Positions 47,405 to 54,707 of a stretch of DNA of 64,000 nt are shown one piece after another. A program made the position numbers and the translations under genes. Numbering within the stretch: position 1 is the first letter of the stretch; each line of letters begins with the position of its first letter. Below the pieces are notes generated by a model. That model made no database searches. It was not told the origin of the DNA and worked only from the letters and a program-made list of their open reading frames with translations. Source of the stretch: Candidatus Manganitrophaceae bacterium. Lineage in GTDB: Bacteria > Nitrospirota > Nitrospiria > SBBL01 > Manganitrophaceae. The stretch lies in the NCBI GenBank assembly GCA_016200325.1, contig JACQEZ010000016.1:124001-188000 (forward strand). Direction: 5' to 3'.

Positions 47405-47450
47405 GGGCACCGCTCCGCCGAACAGGCATCCCACTAGAATAAAGGTGCCC
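47405..47450 (-). terminator. Possible terminator at the end of ccmI
   Basis: The arms GGGCACC (47405-47411) and GGTGCCC (47444-47450) are perfect but enclose 32 bases. On the minus strand TTTGATT follows. The stem overlaps the last codons of ccmI. The long loop makes it a weak candidate. Confidence 0.35.
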
Positions 47451-48357
47451 GGCCTGAGCGGAGGCTCTGCAATGCCTGTTTAACGAAATCGGCGCTCTCC
47501 GTTCCGGGAGGAATATATTTATATGCCTCGGTCCATACTTCATCCGCCTCTTGGTACCGCTCCAAGTGAACCAACACCACCCCCTTTGCCCAGAGGATCG
47601 ATGCATCTTGTGGAACATTGATCAATGCTTTATCGAGATGGCTCAATGCTTCTTGATAGACCTCGCGATTGTTCGGATCGGCCGTCCGGATCAAAACCTC
47701 GGCAAGCCCATAATGGGCGGCATGGCTTCGCTCATCCAATTCAACCGCTTTGCGCCATGCTTTTTCCGCATCCGGCCACCGCTCAAGCGCCATATAGGAT
47801 CGACCTGCCATCAATTGGCCCTGGAGATCGTTTGGGTTTTTCTTTAGACGCTCTTCCAGCCGCGCCACCATTTCAACCGGATTGACCGGAGGCATGCCGG
47901 CTGCCGCTTCTCCAGCGGCAGCCACCTGTTGGCGCTCCAATTTCCACTGAACGAGCTGATGCATGCCGACCGCCCCTGCAACCACCGCCACACCCAGGAC
48001 ACCGATCCAGAGGGGCCCCGGGCCACCCGAAACCGGTTTAGACTTCTTTAATTTGGGTGGGACCAGACCAATCCCCGATAAAGCATCGAGACGATCGAGC
48101 ACCTGAGCCAGCCGGTGTTCATGCCCGAGCTTGAGACGGCCATACTCGGCCGCGGCCATTTTTGATCGGGCGAAATCAATTTCTAAATCCGAGAGGGTAT
48201 GCATAAGGCTCTCCTTCTCGATCTGGAGATCGACCCGTTCTTCATCCAAAGCCGCTTCGTCACCGACGATTAATGCCGCTCGCGATCGGCGCCATAGCGG
48301 ATAAAGCAGAACCAAGGTCACCGCCATCAACATCAACCCGGCGGAAAAAGGAAACAT
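47434..48357 (-). CDS. ccmI: Cytochrome c maturation TPR protein CcmI
   Basis: The 307-residue membrane protein has an N-terminal helix (3-21), a cytoplasmic leucine-zipper-like segment (DLQIEKESLMHTLSDLEIDFARSKM), a second helix (about 113-131) and a periplasmic TPR domain (about 150-300; GRSYMALERWPDAEKAWRKAVELD). It holds apocytochrome c for the heme ligation complex CcmFH. It is the last gene of the ccm operon. Confidence 0.9.
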   Translation of the reverse strand: MFPFSAGLMLMAVTLVLLYPLWRRSRAALIVGDEAALDEERVDLQIEKESLMHTLSDLEIDFARSKMAAAEYGRLKLGHEHRLAQVLDRLDALSGIGLVPPKLKKSKPVSGGPGPLWIGVLGVAVVAGAVGMHQLVQWKLERQQVAAAGEAAAGMPPVNPVEMVARLEERLKKNPNDLQGQLMAGRSYMALERWPDAEKAWRKAVELDERSHAAHYGLAEVLIRTADPNNREVYQEALSHLDKALINVPQDASILWAKGVVLVHLERYQEADEVWTEAYKYIPPGTESADFVKQALQSLRSGRAPLF

Positions 48358-48381: not shown

Positions 48382-48864
48382 TTATTTGTCAGATTCGAAA
48401 GAGCGAAGCGCCTGCTCGACACGCTTTCTGCTGCGCTCATCGAGGGGGGAGAGATCCTCCGGCGGAGGAGGAGCAGTTTGCGCCACCCACTTCCGCAAGG
48501 TCCGGAACAAGAAGGTGCCACCGAGGATCAACAGCAGAAACGGCCCGCCCCAGAGGAGCCAGTTCATGCCGACAAACGTCCTCGGCTGCAGCAGAATGAA
48601 ATCGCCGTAACGGCTGACAAAATAAGCGCGGATCTCATCGGGCGATTGCCCCTGGACCAGCCGCTCCCGGATGATGTCTCGCATCTGAATGGCCAGCTCC
48701 GCATTCGACTCCCAGACCGACTCGGACTGGCAGACGGCACAGCGAAGGGTTTTCGCCACCTCTTTTACACGAACTTGGAGTTGATCATCCGTAAGCGTTT
48801 GGGCCGTTGAAAACGAGGAGAAAAGAATAAGGAGAACGGGAATGAGAATCCAATACTTTATCAT
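48382..48864 (-). CDS. ccmH: Cytochrome c maturation thiol oxidoreductase CcmH
   Basis: The 160-residue protein has a signal peptide (1-21) and the redox motif LRCAVCQSESVWESNAELA (C42-C45). A three-helix bundle follows (RDIIRERLVQGQSPDEIRAYFVSRYGDFILLQP), then a C-terminal membrane helix (about 105-124). It handles the CXXCH cysteines of apocytochromes. It overlaps ccmG by 4 bases. Confidence 0.95.
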   Translation of the reverse strand: MIKYWILIPVLLILFSSFSTAQTLTDDQLQVRVKEVAKTLRCAVCQSESVWESNAELAIQMRDIIRERLVQGQSPDEIRAYFVSRYGDFILLQPRTFVGMNWLLWGGPFLLLILGGTFLFRTLRKWVAQTAPPPPEDLSPLDERSRKRVEQALRSFESDK

Positions 48865-49451
48865 GATGCGGTTGCCGTTCCATTTAATAAAGGCTCGACC
48901 ATTTGCTCAATCAGGAAGGTATAGTTATCACCCATAATCGGCCCGATCAGTTTGTGCCGGATTACTCCGTTCTGATCGATCACGAAGGTCTCCGGGACGC
49001 CGTAGACGCCATAATCGATTGAGATCCTCCCCTTCGCATCCCGGATATGATTAAAATTATTGCCATGCTCCTGAAGATATTGGCGCGCCAGGTCTTCCTT
49101 GTCTTGATAATTGACGCCGAGCATCACAAAGTTTGGGTTCTGCGCAAAATGCTTTTGGACGGCAAGGAGATTTTGGTGCTCGAGCTTACACTCCTGGCAC
49201 CAGGAGGCCCAAAAATTGAGAACCACCACCTTCCCGCGAAATTGAGAGAGCGAGACCTCCTTCGGCTGATAGAGATCGGGCGCCGTGATCTCCGGCGCGG
49301 CGGTCCCGACCAGAACCGGCGGAATGTAAGATGGATTTCCCCAGAGCCCTTTATAAAAAAGGACAATCAAACCGAAAATGACAGCGAGCAGTACAACCTG
49401 CCAACTCCGAATGCCAACCGAGGGAGATTTGGTTTCAGCCATTTCCTTCAT
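48861..49451 (-). CDS. ccmG: Thioredoxin-like CcmG/DsbE protein
   Basis: The 196-residue membrane-anchored thioredoxin has a helix (about 17-33) and the motif WCQEC (C85-C88) in LNFWASWCQECKLEHQN, plus VYGVPETFVIDQNG with the cis-proline of the GVPET segment. ATG 49451 overlaps the ccmF stop (ATGA), giving coupled translation; longer starts lie inside ccmF. It reduces CcmH and apocytochromes. Confidence 0.94.
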   Translation of the reverse strand: MKEMAETKSPSVGIRSWQVVLLAVIFGLIVLFYKGLWGNPSYIPPVLVGTAAPEITAPDLYQPKEVSLSQFRGKVVVLNFWASWCQECKLEHQNLLAVQKHFAQNPNFVMLGVNYQDKEDLARQYLQEHGNNFNHIRDAKGRISIDYGVYGVPETFVIDQNGVIRHKLIGPIMGDNYTFLIEQMVEPLLNGTATAS

Positions 49452-51535
49452 ACCTCTTTTCTCCCCGGCCAGACGGCGTTGAGAAAGGCCTGCCATCGAT
49501 TCGACCGATGAAGCACCTCCTCCCGGGCTGGCCGCGGCAGAGAAACCGGCGCTTCAGAAAGAGCGGGCTCCGGGTGGAGTGCTGATAACTTCATCCGCGA
49601 GCCTCGGAGGATATTTAAGATCACACCGATCCCCATGATCCCCCCCCCATACCAGACCCACAGCACCAACGGATTATGCAGGGCGCGTACCCGTGCCCAA
49701 CTGCCGTCGGGTGCCACTTCAGGAATCGTCAGAAAAATATGTCCCGTGTAGATTTGGTGAATGGCGGTCTCAGTGGTCGGCGTCTGTGAGACAGTGTAAA
49801 AACGCTTTTGAGGACGAAGCTGAGTGAGAAGGGTCTCTCCCTTATAGACATTAAAGAGGGCCTCTTGGCCTTCCCAGTTTACCCCCTCTGCGCCGTAAAG
49901 CCGAATCAATTTGATTCGGTAGGCGCCGAGCCCCGTCTCTTCCCCGGGCTTCATGATCAATACTTTTTCAGTTTGATAGATGGTAGAGAAGATAATTCCG
50001 ACGATCATCACCAGCACACCAATATGCGTGAGAATCCCCGCAAGCCGCCTCGGATTCTTTTTATAAGCGGTTAAAAATCCTTGAAGCGAACTGACCTGCT
50101 CCCGCTTCGCCCAGAAAACGGAGAGCTTGGCAAAATCGAGAAAGATCACGGCGGCGACGAAGCAGACCACGGTTAACCCGGCCAAAGCATAACTGTGCCG
50201 AATGCCGGCGATCAAAAAAAAGGCCAGACCTCCTAAGGCAATCAACCCCGGTATTAAGAAGAGCCCCTTCAAGCTCTGAATCGATGCCTTCCGCCACGGG
50301 ATATAAGGCCCAATCCCCATCAGAAAGACGAGACCGAGCGCCACCGGCATGAAAACGGTGTTGTAATAAGGAGGCCCCACTGAGACCTTTTTGAATTGCA
50401 GCGCTTCCGTCAGCAGAGGATAGAGGGTCCCGATGAAGACGGTGACCATGGCGACCAGGAAGAAAAGATTGTTGAAGAGGAAAATCGCCTCCCGGGAGAT
50501 CACCGAATCCATCTCAATCTGACTCTTCAGCTTGGCAGATCGAAAGATCAGCGTTCCAAAAGAAAGGAGCAACATGAAGGAAAGAAATCCGAGGATGAAA
50601 ACACCCCGGCCTGGGTCGGCGGCAAAGGAATGGACCGAGGAAAGAATGCCGCTTCGGACCAGGAACGTTCCGATGAGAGAGAGGGAGAAGGCCAGGATGA
50701 TGAGAAAGAGATTCCAAACCTTGAACATCTTCCTTGTTTCCTGCACCATCACCGAATGAAGAAAGGCGGTGGCGACGAGCCAAGGCATGAAGGCGGCATT
50801 TTCGACCGGATCCCATCCCCAATAGCCGCCCCAGCCGAGCTCATAATAAGCCCAGTAGCCCCCCATCAGAATTCCAATCGTCAAGCAGAGCCACGCCATC
50901 AGCGTCCACCGCTGCGTCGCCTTAATCCATTCTTCTCCCAAGCGCCCTGAAAAAAGAGCGGCCATTGCAAATGAAAATGGGATCGACAGCCCCACATAGC
51001 CGAGGTAGAGGAAGGGGGGGTGCATCACCATCGCAGGATCTTGTAGAAGGGGATTGAGATCCCTTCCATCCAGCGGAATCGGGAAGATCCTCTCGAAAGG
51101 GTTGGAGAGAAAGAGGATGAGGAGCAGAAATCCGCTCATCACCGTCGACTGCATGGCGATCAAATAAGGCATCACCGCCGGCTGTGTTTTCCAGTGAATT
51201 CGAGCTGCCAGCATGCAGAAGAACGACAGAATCCAGGACCAAAGAAGGAGGGAGCCCTCATGCCCCCCCCAAAGACCCGCCACCTTATAAAAGATCGGAA
51301 GCTTGCTGTTGGAAGTGGCATAGACATACTTTACAGAATAGTCCTGGGTCAAATAGGAGTATTCCATCGCCAACATCCCGATCGAGATGAGGACGAAATT
51401 CAGCGTGACCGCCTGACGGCCCACTTCGACCCAAACCGCCTCACGCCGCTTCAATCCGACGATGGGAGAGGCAATCCCGACCGCCGCAAGAATCAGCGCG
51501 GTAATGACGGCGAAATGGCCAAGCTCGATGATCAT
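49448..51535 (-). CDS. ccmF: Heme lyase subunit CcmF
   Basis: The 695-residue, multi-helix protein attaches heme to apocytochrome c. It carries the tryptophan-rich WWD domain (ELGWGGYWGWDPVENAAFMPWL, about residues 230-252), GLWGGHEGSLLLWSW, and histidines in the flanking periplasmic loops. A C-terminal periplasmic segment (about 550-630) precedes the last helix. The length is slightly above typical because of the C-terminal tail. Confidence 0.96.
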   Translation of the reverse strand: MIIELGHFAVITALILAAVGIASPIVGLKRREAVWVEVGRQAVTLNFVLISIGMLAMEYSYLTQDYSVKYVYATSNSKLPIFYKVAGLWGGHEGSLLLWSWILSFFCMLAARIHWKTQPAVMPYLIAMQSTVMSGFLLLILFLSNPFERIFPIPLDGRDLNPLLQDPAMVMHPPFLYLGYVGLSIPFSFAMAALFSGRLGEEWIKATQRWTLMAWLCLTIGILMGGYWAYYELGWGGYWGWDPVENAAFMPWLVATAFLHSVMVQETRKMFKVWNLFLIILAFSLSLIGTFLVRSGILSSVHSFAADPGRGVFILGFLSFMLLLSFGTLIFRSAKLKSQIEMDSVISREAIFLFNNLFFLVAMVTVFIGTLYPLLTEALQFKKVSVGPPYYNTVFMPVALGLVFLMGIGPYIPWRKASIQSLKGLFLIPGLIALGGLAFFLIAGIRHSYALAGLTVVCFVAAVIFLDFAKLSVFWAKREQVSSLQGFLTAYKKNPRRLAGILTHIGVLVMIVGIIFSTIYQTEKVLIMKPGEETGLGAYRIKLIRLYGAEGVNWEGQEALFNVYKGETLLTQLRPQKRFYTVSQTPTTETAIHQIYTGHIFLTIPEVAPDGSWARVRALHNPLVLWVWYGGGIMGIGVILNILRGSRMKLSALHPEPALSEAPVSLPRPAREEVLHRSNRWQAFLNAVWPGRKEV

Positions 51536-51625: not shown

Positions 51626-52081
51626 TTAATCGACTTTCAAGGTCTTGAAGAAGTCCTTCTTCGGGAGCGCTCCACCGGCCTTCTTCATTTCGACCGGCAT
51701 GTAATCTTCCGAGTGCTTCGCCATAATCATTTGGGAATGAAAGGTCCGATCGGCATCCCAGAATCCTTCGACAACGGCCCCTTGTCCTTCTTTAAAGAGA
51801 TCGGGCGGCACCCCTTCAAAAGCAACCGGGATCTTCTCAGCCCCATCGGTCAGATCGAACGTCAACTGCAAGGTATTCGGGACCACTTTCAGGCTATTCT
51901 TCACCACCAGTCCGGCCACCCGAACCTTCTTGCCATAATGATCGGGAGCAAAGGTGACCACCTCGGAGGGGGTGACAAAATAGATCAGATTTTTACCGAA
52001 ATTGCCGAAGACCAGGTATCCGACCCCACCGACGACGATCAGGATGCTGATGATGATCGCTGTTTTCTTACCGCCTTTCAA
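51626..52081 (-). CDS. ccmE: Heme chaperone CcmE
   Basis: The 151-residue protein has an N-terminal anchor (about 8-25) and an OB-fold domain ending in the heme-binding motif H123-S-E-D-Y127 (AKHSEDYMP), the HxxxY site that binds heme covalently. It overlaps the preceding CcmE/CcmD-like fusion gene by 14 bases. A 90-base gap separates it from ccmF. Confidence 0.95.
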   Translation of the reverse strand: MKGGKKTAIIISILIVVGGVGYLVFGNFGKNLIYFVTPSEVVTFAPDHYGKKVRVAGLVVKNSLKVVPNTLQLTFDLTDGAEKIPVAFEGVPPDLFKEGQGAVVEGFWDADRTFHSQMIMAKHSEDYMPVEMKKAGGALPKKDFFKTLKVD

Positions 52082-52583
52082 GTTGCTCCTCCGCCAGCTG
52101 CTCCGGCTGATAGACCTTTTCCTCTTTAATAAGAATATATAACAATGCGACTTTCCGTTCCATATTAAAAAGGAAAAGCCCCATCGGAAGCAATGAGATC
52201 AGATATGCCGCCGTCACAAACCCATAATTCGGCACGAGCGCAAGTTTTTCCGATTCGAAGGTTTGCGTGGTTGAATTCCATTTTCCGACCACCACCACGG
52301 TTTTTAAATCTCTCAGGTTCTCGGCCTCTTCTCCCTGGTATTGGACACCGATCTTCGCCCCCTCCCCAGAGAGCTGAAACCCGATCGGCTTCCCTTCGGC
52401 CTCTTTGATCACACTCCCGGCTTCCACCATTCCCAGGACCCGGACCATCTGTGTCGGCTGCTCGCGAAGAAGCCGATCCGGAGAAATCGCCGTGACGTCC
52501 CGATTGTATCGCTGAATTCCAAAGATCCCGATGGTGGCTGCAACAATCAGGACACCTCCCCACCGGATGTAAAACCATTTCAT
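52068..52583 (-). CDS. CcmE-like OB-fold protein fused to a CcmD-like membrane segment
   Basis: The 171-residue protein has a first membrane helix (8-24), then an OB-like domain (about 40-118; VRVLGMVEAGSVIKEAEGKPIGFQL, TVVVVGKWNSTTQTFESEKLALV). The layout parallels CcmE, but at the heme site VPNY stands where CcmE has KHSEDY, so no heme-binding histidine remains. A second helix follows (about 122-140, GFVTAAYLISLLPMGLFLFNMERK) with a charged tail, reminiscent of CcmD. It lies between ccmC and ccmE, where ccmD normally sits. A fusion that replaces CcmD is my interpretation. Confidence 0.65.
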   Translation of the reverse strand: MKWFYIRWGGVLIVAATIGIFGIQRYNRDVTAISPDRLLREQPTQMVRVLGMVEAGSVIKEAEGKPIGFQLSGEGAKIGVQYQGEEAENLRDLKTVVVVGKWNSTTQTFESEKLALVPNYGFVTAAYLISLLPMGLFLFNMERKVALLYILIKEEKVYQPEQLAEEQLERR

Positions 52584-52647: not shown

Positions 52648-53361
52648 TCATAGATGAACTTTGCTGAGCATCCGTCCCCGTTTTGCTTCGAGCAGGTGTT
52701 GAAGATAGAGCATCTGCGTCCGGACCATCAGCATATAAGCAAACAGAAGATAAAACCCGACCGACATCAAAAGCAGCGGAATCAGCATGTCGCGTGCGAT
52801 GCTGACCCCCCGGGTCGAAATAGAGAGAGGCTGGTGTAGCGTCCGCCACCATTCGACCGAAAAATGGATGATCGGCAGGTCGACAAAACCGATAATGGCA
52901 ATGATGGCGGCATAGGTCGCCTCCTTCTCCTTATCTTCCAGGAACGTTCGAAGCATTAAATATCCAACCAAGATCAGGAGCATAATGGCGAAGGAGATCA
53001 ACCGGGGATCCCATGTCCACCAGGTATTCCAGGTCGGCTTTGCCCAAATCGAGCCGGTAATGAGCGCCACGAGCGTAAAGAAAACGCCAATCCCGGCCGC
53101 CGCGTGGGACATATTATCGACGATCGGATCGCGCTTCCAGAGATACCAAACGCTCCCGCCGAAGAGGACGGTATAGGCGAACATGGCACTCTGTGCGGCG
53201 GGGACATGAATATACATGATTCGGACCACCTCTCCCTGGTAATAATCGGGCGACGAGGTGACCAGACCCATGTAGAGGCCGACCATGATCAGAAGCCCGG
53301 CGGCGACACCGAACCATCCTTCGTAGCGTTGAAGCCTTGCAATGAGACGACTGACAATCAT
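52648..53361 (-). CDS. ccmC: Heme export/handling protein CcmC
   Basis: The 237-residue, six-helix protein has the WWD motif WAKPTWNTWWTWDPRLISFAIML and flanking periplasmic histidines (YIHVPAAQSAMFAY, IIHFSVEWWRTLHQP). It loads heme onto CcmE. ATG 53361 follows the ccmB stop by 4 bases; the longer frame start at 53388 lies inside ccmB. Confidence 0.95.
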   Translation of the reverse strand: MIVSRLIARLQRYEGWFGVAAGLLIMVGLYMGLVTSSPDYYQGEVVRIMYIHVPAAQSAMFAYTVLFGGSVWYLWKRDPIVDNMSHAAAGIGVFFTLVALITGSIWAKPTWNTWWTWDPRLISFAIMLLILVGYLMLRTFLEDKEKEATYAAIIAIIGFVDLPIIHFSVEWWRTLHQPLSISTRGVSIARDMLIPLLLMSVGFYLLFAYMLMVRTQMLYLQHLLEAKRGRMLSKVHL

Positions 53362-53365
53362 CTTA

Positions 53366-54043
53366 TTAATAATCCAGGATAAATTCAAATACCCAAAAAG
53401 AAATGGTCACAAAAATGAGGTCGAAGACGATCAGCAATTTGATCCAATCAAGATAGAGCGGAAGGGGATCGCCGTTGAATACGCCGCGCGTCGCTTCAAC
53501 CGCGCCGATAAAAATCGGCACGGCCAGCGGCAAGAGGAGAATTGGAAACATCACCTCCCTTGCTCGGATCTGAACCGTCAGGGCGGAAAAAAGGGTGCCT
53601 AATGCCGAAAGTCCGATCGTCGCCGCCAGAGATATTAGCAGAATCATCGGCGTCTTTTCAAGTACATCCAGGTTGAAGAAGAGGATAAACATCGGAAAGA
53701 GGATGATTTCCACAATTAACATGAAAAGGGCATTACCGGCAAACTTTCCAAGGTAAATCGCACCCTTGGGCACCGGAAGCATCTGGAAATATTCCATGCA
53801 GTCGTTATGTACTTCGGCCAAGAAAGATTTCCCTAATCCAATAATCCCGGTGAACCCGAACGCAATCCAGATAATCCCGGGCATCAGTTCACGGCTGCTC
53901 TTTGCATCCATCGAGAAGCTGAAGCTAAAAATCAAGATCACAATCAGCGCAAAAAAGAACATGGAAGAGATGTTTTCACGGCTGCGGAGCTCGCTTAATA
54001 GATCCTTCCATGCAATCCATTGAATCACCCTAAAAAAGTGCAT
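53366..54043 (-). CDS. ccmB: Heme exporter membrane subunit CcmB
   Basis: The 225-residue ABC permease subunit has six helices. It opens with IAWKDLLSELRSRENISSMFFFALIVILIFSFSF and contains EYFQMLPVPKGAIYLGKF, both characteristic. It pairs with CcmA to release heme-loaded CcmE. It overlaps ccmA by 14 bases. Confidence 0.94.
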   Translation of the reverse strand: MHFFRVIQWIAWKDLLSELRSRENISSMFFFALIVILIFSFSFSMDAKSSRELMPGIIWIAFGFTGIIGLGKSFLAEVHNDCMEYFQMLPVPKGAIYLGKFAGNALFMLIVEIILFPMFILFFNLDVLEKTPMILLISLAATIGLSALGTLFSALTVQIRAREVMFPILLLPLAVPIFIGAVEATRGVFNGDPLPLYLDWIKLLIVFDLIFVTISFWVFEFILDY

Positions 54044-54707
54044 GTTCCGCCAGTAGTTCTTTTACGGCCAGTTCGTTCAGCCCCCCCCGGTTCAGAACAC
54101 CGGCACGATGGGCCACTTCCGCCGTCTTCGCCCGGTCGTGCGCCGTCAGAAGGACCGTCATTCCCCCTTGAGCCACCTCTCGGATAAATCCATTCACCAT
54201 ATCGACCCCCCGTTCATCGAGTGAAGCATAGGCCTCATCTAAAAGGAGCACTTTGGGGCGGACCAACATCGCCTTGGCGATCGAGAGGCGTTTTTTCATC
54301 CCTGCAGAGAGATATCGGCTCTTTAGCGCGGCGAAGGCGCCGATGCCGACCCGGTCGAGCGCCAGTTTCATCTCCCGTTCGGTCGGATTTCCTCCACGAA
54401 GGCCGATGGCAAAACGGATATTTTCCAGAACGGTTAGATCATCATAGAGGTAGGAGCCGTGGCTGATGAGAAAGAGAGATTCGCGGACCTTTATCCGCTC
54501 GCGAGAGCCGTCGAATCCGTTAATTTCGAATCGTCCGGAGGTGGGGCGGTGGAGCGTCGCCAGGATCCTCAGGAGGGTCGTCTTCCCGGCGCCATTCGGG
54601 CCAAACAGGGCATAACATTCGCCCTCCTTCACCTCCAAAGAGATCCGATTGAGGACCTGATAGTGCTGGAAGGACTTACTTAGCTCTATTCCTCGAATCG
54701 CCGCCAT
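54030..54707 (-). CDS. ccmA: Heme exporter ATP-binding subunit CcmA
   Basis: The 225-residue ABC ATPase has Walker A GPNGAGKTTL (residues 36-45), the signature YLSAGMKKRLSIAKA, Walker B VLLLDEAYASLD and the switch region LLTAHDRAK. The signature begins LSAG rather than LSGG, as is often seen in CcmA. It is the first gene of the ccm operon, preceded by a good promoter. Confidence 0.94.
   Translation of the reverse strand: MAAIRGIELSKSFQHYQVLNRISLEVKEGECYALFGPNGAGKTTLLRILATLHRPTSGRFEINGFDGSRERIKVRESLFLISHGSYLYDDLTVLENIRFAIGLRGGNPTEREMKLALDRVGIGAFAALKSRYLSAGMKKRLSIAKAMLVRPKVLLLDEAYASLDERGVDMVNGFIREVAQGGMTVLLTAHDRAKTAEVAHRAGVLNRGGLNELAVKELLAEHALF

Follow-up and report, generated by a model that had tools for sequence, protein, structure and literature searches.

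A CcmD-like segment joined to a histidine-free CcmE-type OB domain in the ccm operon of a Candidatus Manganitrophaceae bacterium

The ccm locus and the OB domain of X

The ccm genes of the window, i.e. the whole stretch of 64,000 nucleotides of Candidatus Manganitrophaceae DNA that was analysed, follow the order ccmA-B-C-[X]-E-F-G-H-I, where X is the gene considered here (Table 1). This is the order given in the original prediction, and the Pfam and NCBIfam assignments agree with it. X starts with ATG and reads from 52583 down to 52068. About 65 nt separate it from the end of ccmC, and its own end is overlapped by 14 nt by the start of ccmE, whose start codon, TTG, is preceded by GGAGGAG. Because of this overlap and the GGAGGAG, translation of X and ccmE is probably coupled. 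No RNA structure above the level of shuffled sequences was found at the overlap.

Table 1. Features of the ccm locus in the window
Feature	Position	Strand	Remarks
Gene X, 171 aa	52068..52583	-	TM helix at the N-terminus; OB domain of the CcmE type lacking the heme ligand; second TM helix and charged tail, both CcmD-like
X residues ~9-29, N-terminal TM helix	52497..52559	-	Weak similarity to CcmE N-terminal TM profile (hhalign probability 44.5%)
X residues ~36-117, CcmE-type OB domain	52233..52478	-	Pfam match at residues 38-114; hhalign against CcmE profile 98.5%
X residues ~118-161, CcmD-like segment	52101..52232	-	PNYGF, TM helix, MERKVxLLYxxIKxxKxYxPE
Canonical ccmE with AKHSEDY	51626..52081	-	AGGALPKKDFFKTL motif at the C-terminus, as is usual in fusion-type genomes
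ccmC, directly upstream of X	52648..53388	-	Pfam/NCBIfam
ccmB	53366..54043	-	Pfam/NCBIfam
ccmA	54030..54707	-	Pfam/NCBIfam
ccmF	49448..51535	-	Pfam/NCBIfam
ccmG/DsbE-type thioredoxin	48861..49496	-	Pfam/NCBIfam
ccmH	48382..48864	-	Pfam
ccmI (TPR)	47434..48357	-	Pfam/NCBIfam

CcmE is the sole domain matched by Pfam in the X protein of the window (PF03100; E = 2.4e-11, 44.3 bits against a cut-off of 24.6), and it is matched in all 21 members of the X family. The structure of X alone, predicted by AlphaFold2 from 21 sequences (pLDDT 84.4, pTM 0.63), consists of a TM helix, a five-strand OB domain and a long TM helix, with helices at residues 2-30 and 120-157 and strands at 47-53, 67-73, 76-82, 95-103 and 108-115. 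Searched with Foldseek against the PDB, this model matches 8ce8_E best (E = 2.4e-6, TMq 0.50), which is CcmE in the CcmABCDE complex of E. coli; generic OB folds rank next. The best matches in a sequence-profile search of the PDB are likewise CcmE. The CcmE-like OB domain proposed earlier is thus borne out by the Pfam match, the predicted strands and the Foldseek result.

The heme site of CcmE is replaced in X, as had also been proposed. LALVPNYGF occupies the position of IMAKHSEDY in the neighbouring CcmE, with VPNY in place of KHSEDY, and in all 54 X homologues the ligand (HxxxY or CxxxY) is absent at this site, where no His or Cys is conserved. The OB domain of X is almost certainly derived from CcmE and free of the histidine. 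X shares with CcmE (PF03100; PDB 8ce8_E, 1sr3) the N-terminal TM helix, the OB domain and the conserved scaffold residues. In contrast to CcmE, which has a single N-terminal TM helix and a free C-terminal tail, X lacks the ligand, has the predicted second long helix, CcmD-like, in place of the tail, and co-exists with a true CcmE.

A variant Ccm is also present in other Nitrospirota families, namely System I*, with a Cys-type CcmE (CPSKY; L124-L129). The ligand altered in System I* is that of the sole CcmE, whereas in X it has been lost from a second copy. Separately, a secreted OB-fold protein of 140-150 aa recurs in Nitrospiraceae, also where there is no CcmE match (L130:1769-2191, - strand; L131:1695-2150, + strand); it matches the CcmE model weakly and is unrelated to heme by sequence.

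X might be regarded as a second, divergent heme chaperone, in which the OB domain holds heme without a covalent bond, or by other residues, and hands it to CcmE or directly to CcmF. The conserved OB scaffold, the conserved LRELK loop at the position of LFREG in CcmE, the invariably aromatic residue 120 (Y in 45 and F in 9 of the 54 homologues) and W102 (93% conserved) would be in keeping with such a role, as would the crosslinking of heme by CcmD Y17, which in E. coli lies at a like position, once it is changed to Cys (PMC12077264). This explanation is nevertheless unlikely, considering that neither His nor Cys is conserved at the covalent site, that a canonical CcmE adjoins X in the fusion genomes, and that X is tethered to the membrane at both ends, which is unsuited to shuttling.

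Likeness to CcmD and absence of a standalone CcmD

The original prediction had also likened the second helix and charged tail of X to CcmD. The X protein of the window itself has no CcmD match in Pfam or NCBIfam. When all X members are scanned, two independent libraries rank CcmD next after CcmE: PF04995 matches seven of 21 orthologues (best E 0.0051) and TIGR03141 matches five of 21 (best 5.2e-4), all below the curated cut-offs. Three genomes of another class of the same phylum (family f15; L081, L122 and L123) carry between ccmC and ccmE an unfused ORF of 53-55 aa, MKSNYEFIAAAYGATAVILGLYWWRMRARLSRL, which is a NYEF-type CcmD and reaches 20.9 bits with PF04995 in one genome, below the cut-off.

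The tail of X matches the f15 ORF with an hhalign probability of 94.7%, while the controls, true CcmE matches left out, range from 0.1 to 1.6% (reversed tail, CcmC and CcmE ≤ 0.4%; first TM segment of X against CcmD 0.8%). The higher value between this TM segment and CcmE (44.5%) is expected if the segment derives from CcmE. With an HMM of the f15 ORFs, 33 of 54 X proteins score above 8 bits, compared with 0/1080 shuffled tails, 0/54 reversed proteins and 0/167 CcmE and CcmC sequences. An HMM built solely on GGY-type CcmDs (Nitrospira, E. coli) fails to tell X from shuffled sequences; therefore, the link of X to CcmD runs via the f15 ORFs. Taken with the sub-cut-off matches, the hhalign result upholds the claimed likeness, and a CcmD-like nature of the C-terminal segment is supported at the level of sequence. 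The f15 CcmD is the unfused comparison state and a putative intermediate toward the fusion.

Like CcmD (PF04995/TIGR03141), X lies between ccmC and ccmE and is predicted to have a returning TM helix with a charged tail, and its N(Y/F)GF...AY resembles the GGYxxYVW of CcmD. It differs in its length (171 aa vs about 40-100 aa), in the TM helix and OB domain that precede the segment in X alone, in the absence of the GGY motif and of the N-terminal amphipathic helix of CcmD, and in that its sequence match to CcmD is sub-threshold.

The genome of the window is 99.4% complete, and no convincing separate ccmD was found in it with any of four different queries (PF04995, TIGR03141, a CcmD alignment and the unfused CcmD of the sister lineage); one of these searches was empty and had no positive control of its own. 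Neither a separate ccmD nor a lack of the OB fold, the combination named as contrary to the original prediction, is thus found. In the class, represented by 270 genomes, X is present in 79 (counted at E below 1e-30) and a standalone CcmD over the cut-off in 88; no genome has both, the totals being counted from the listed rows. In the phylum sample, X is present in 21 genomes, each also with a separate CcmE, and CcmD in 27, again without overlap. All 88 genomes with standalone CcmD belong to one family (f4). The two states follow families, and the exclusion therefore represents few independent events. It appears very probable that X replaces CcmD.

In one f4 genome (G227, L133; Nitrospiraceae-family), a whole X-type ccm cluster is present instead of a standalone CcmD; transfer, old retention and contamination are possible sources.

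The sub-threshold nature of the CcmD matches might also mean that the second helix is an unrelated anchor with a convergent likeness to CcmD, and that X is a mere paralogue of CcmE in bacteria where the CcmD function has been lost or is dispensable, as in archaea, whose Ccm functions without CcmD (PMC9084895). According to the same work, ccmD is universal in bacteria, and its fusion to ccmA, ccmB or ccmC in archaea is deemed unlikely (PMC9084895). The anchor explanation is improbable, slightly more so than the chaperone. Against it stand the rank of CcmD directly behind CcmE in both independent libraries, the f15 link with its clean controls, the mutual exclusion of X and standalone CcmD, the strong constraint on the tail (see below), and the association of X with ccmC, not ccmE, where the two are separated.

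Conservation and origin of the fused gene

The search for the same fusion in related genomes, suggested with the original prediction, was productive. In the phylum, sampled with 198 genomes, 20 further full-length homologues with 37-53% identity are present. An independent scan of GTDB contigs gives 44 loci, nearly all labelled Nitrospirota and two Nitrospinota, with the nearest relative in a Candidatus Manganitrophaceae genome (82%); the scan used two conserved X motifs and would overlook more distant forms in other phyla. Within the class, X occurs in nine families or more, and no plasmid-borne relatives were found. Frames of 388-467 aa in some X matches, considered as CcmC fusions, were rejected as out-of-frame read-through upstream of the start.

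The order C-X-E is kept in all 44 loci, with gaps of 7-53 bp between ccmC and X and of -40 to 1826 bp between X and ccmE. At the locus with the largest X-E gap, an integrase-type transposase (L065:5573-6700, - strand) lies between X and ccmE and splits ccmABC-X from ccmEFGH. In two other loci (L036 and L073), unlike most, no ccmAB were found within 4 kb on the upstream side of ccmC-X; these genes may lie elsewhere.

Thirteen residues are invariant in the 54 non-identical homologues (R48, G51, F69, G84, R91, K94, G100, Y127, F139, M141, L148, K153 and Y158). Comparison of the window with the nearest relative, a single pair with small counts, gives dN/dS values of 0.13 (X), 0.14 (TM-OB part of X), 0.036 (CcmD-like part of X) and 0.089 (CcmE); by this measure the CcmD-like part is the most constrained part of X. 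Dozens of orthologues with 37-82% identity keep the whole architecture under purifying selection, and a chance arrangement is therefore excluded. It is also most improbable that operon linkage merely preserves X as a duplicate of ccmE in decay or broken of late, since its presence in at least nine families with invariant residues and a dN/dS of 0.13 contradicts decay, although the heme ligand is lost, X evolves faster than CcmE and its clade has a long stem.

The fused proteins form one clade (SH-aLRT 100) with a long stem. With p-AU values of 0.57-0.65 for rival groupings of the OB domain, the tree neither supports nor rejects a sister relationship between this domain and the neighbouring CcmE. 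A motif in the tail of CcmE, AG..(LPKKDF.KTL-like), is present in 52 of 52 CcmE from fusion-type genomes vs none of 29 CcmE of other Nitrospirota. CcmE may have co-adapted with X, or the motif could simply be inherited from a common ancestor.

Proposed role of X

The reading preferred here, with a probability of roughly 0.7, is that X is a lineage-specific CcmD which carries a CcmE-derived histidine-free OB domain and is a fixed part of CcmABCD. CcmD has the topology N-out/C-in and a role in the release of holo-CcmE (PMC3884852, PMC3601427, PMC10457321). X is predicted to have its N-terminus in the cytoplasm, the OB domain in the periplasm, and helix 2 returning to a cytoplasmic C-terminal tail, the orientation of the predicted helix 2 being suggested by its charges and by the fused OB domain. 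Because the CcmE module is N-in with the OB domain outside and CcmD is N-out and C-in, this topology is consistent.

Sequence, gene position and mutual exclusion suggest that the CcmD part of X would take the site of CcmD on CcmC. The OB domain would then be held above CcmC and beside the WWD heme site, close to where heme is loaded onto the mobile CcmE. Its most likely role there would be to dock CcmE and help to release holo-CcmE, or to shield heme non-covalently. An action in docking or release is put at slightly under even odds. More tentative still is the picture of a CcmD whose integral CcmE copy binds no heme and serves as a fixed dock for mobile CcmE, through an OB-OB handover to which the CcmE tail would be co-adapted.

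In E. coli, CcmD packs on CcmC, the TM helix of CcmE touches CcmB, and the OB domain of CcmE hovers over the CcmB-CcmC interface (PMC10457321); Cys variants of CcmD at Y17 and I46 crosslink heme (PMC12077264). The contacts of the TM helix of CcmE with CcmB and of CcmD with CcmC count against a simple seating of both TM segments of X.

CcmH-CcmI of E. coli likewise unites Ccm parts that otherwise occur as separate proteins (PMC3601427). Both parts of CcmH-CcmI are functional, while one part of X is a histidine-free extra copy. An earlier report of a CcmD-CcmE-like fusion was not found in the open-access literature, and a prior mention is possible.

CcmD is tiny and poorly conserved, and the mode in which it releases holo-CcmE is unsettled. 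A natural fusion of CcmD with a ligand-less CcmE points to a physical partnership of CcmD and CcmE, for which X would provide a larger, taggable handle. It would also explain why standard models find no ccmD in much of the Nitrospirota, among them manganese-oxidising relatives for which cytochromes c are essential.
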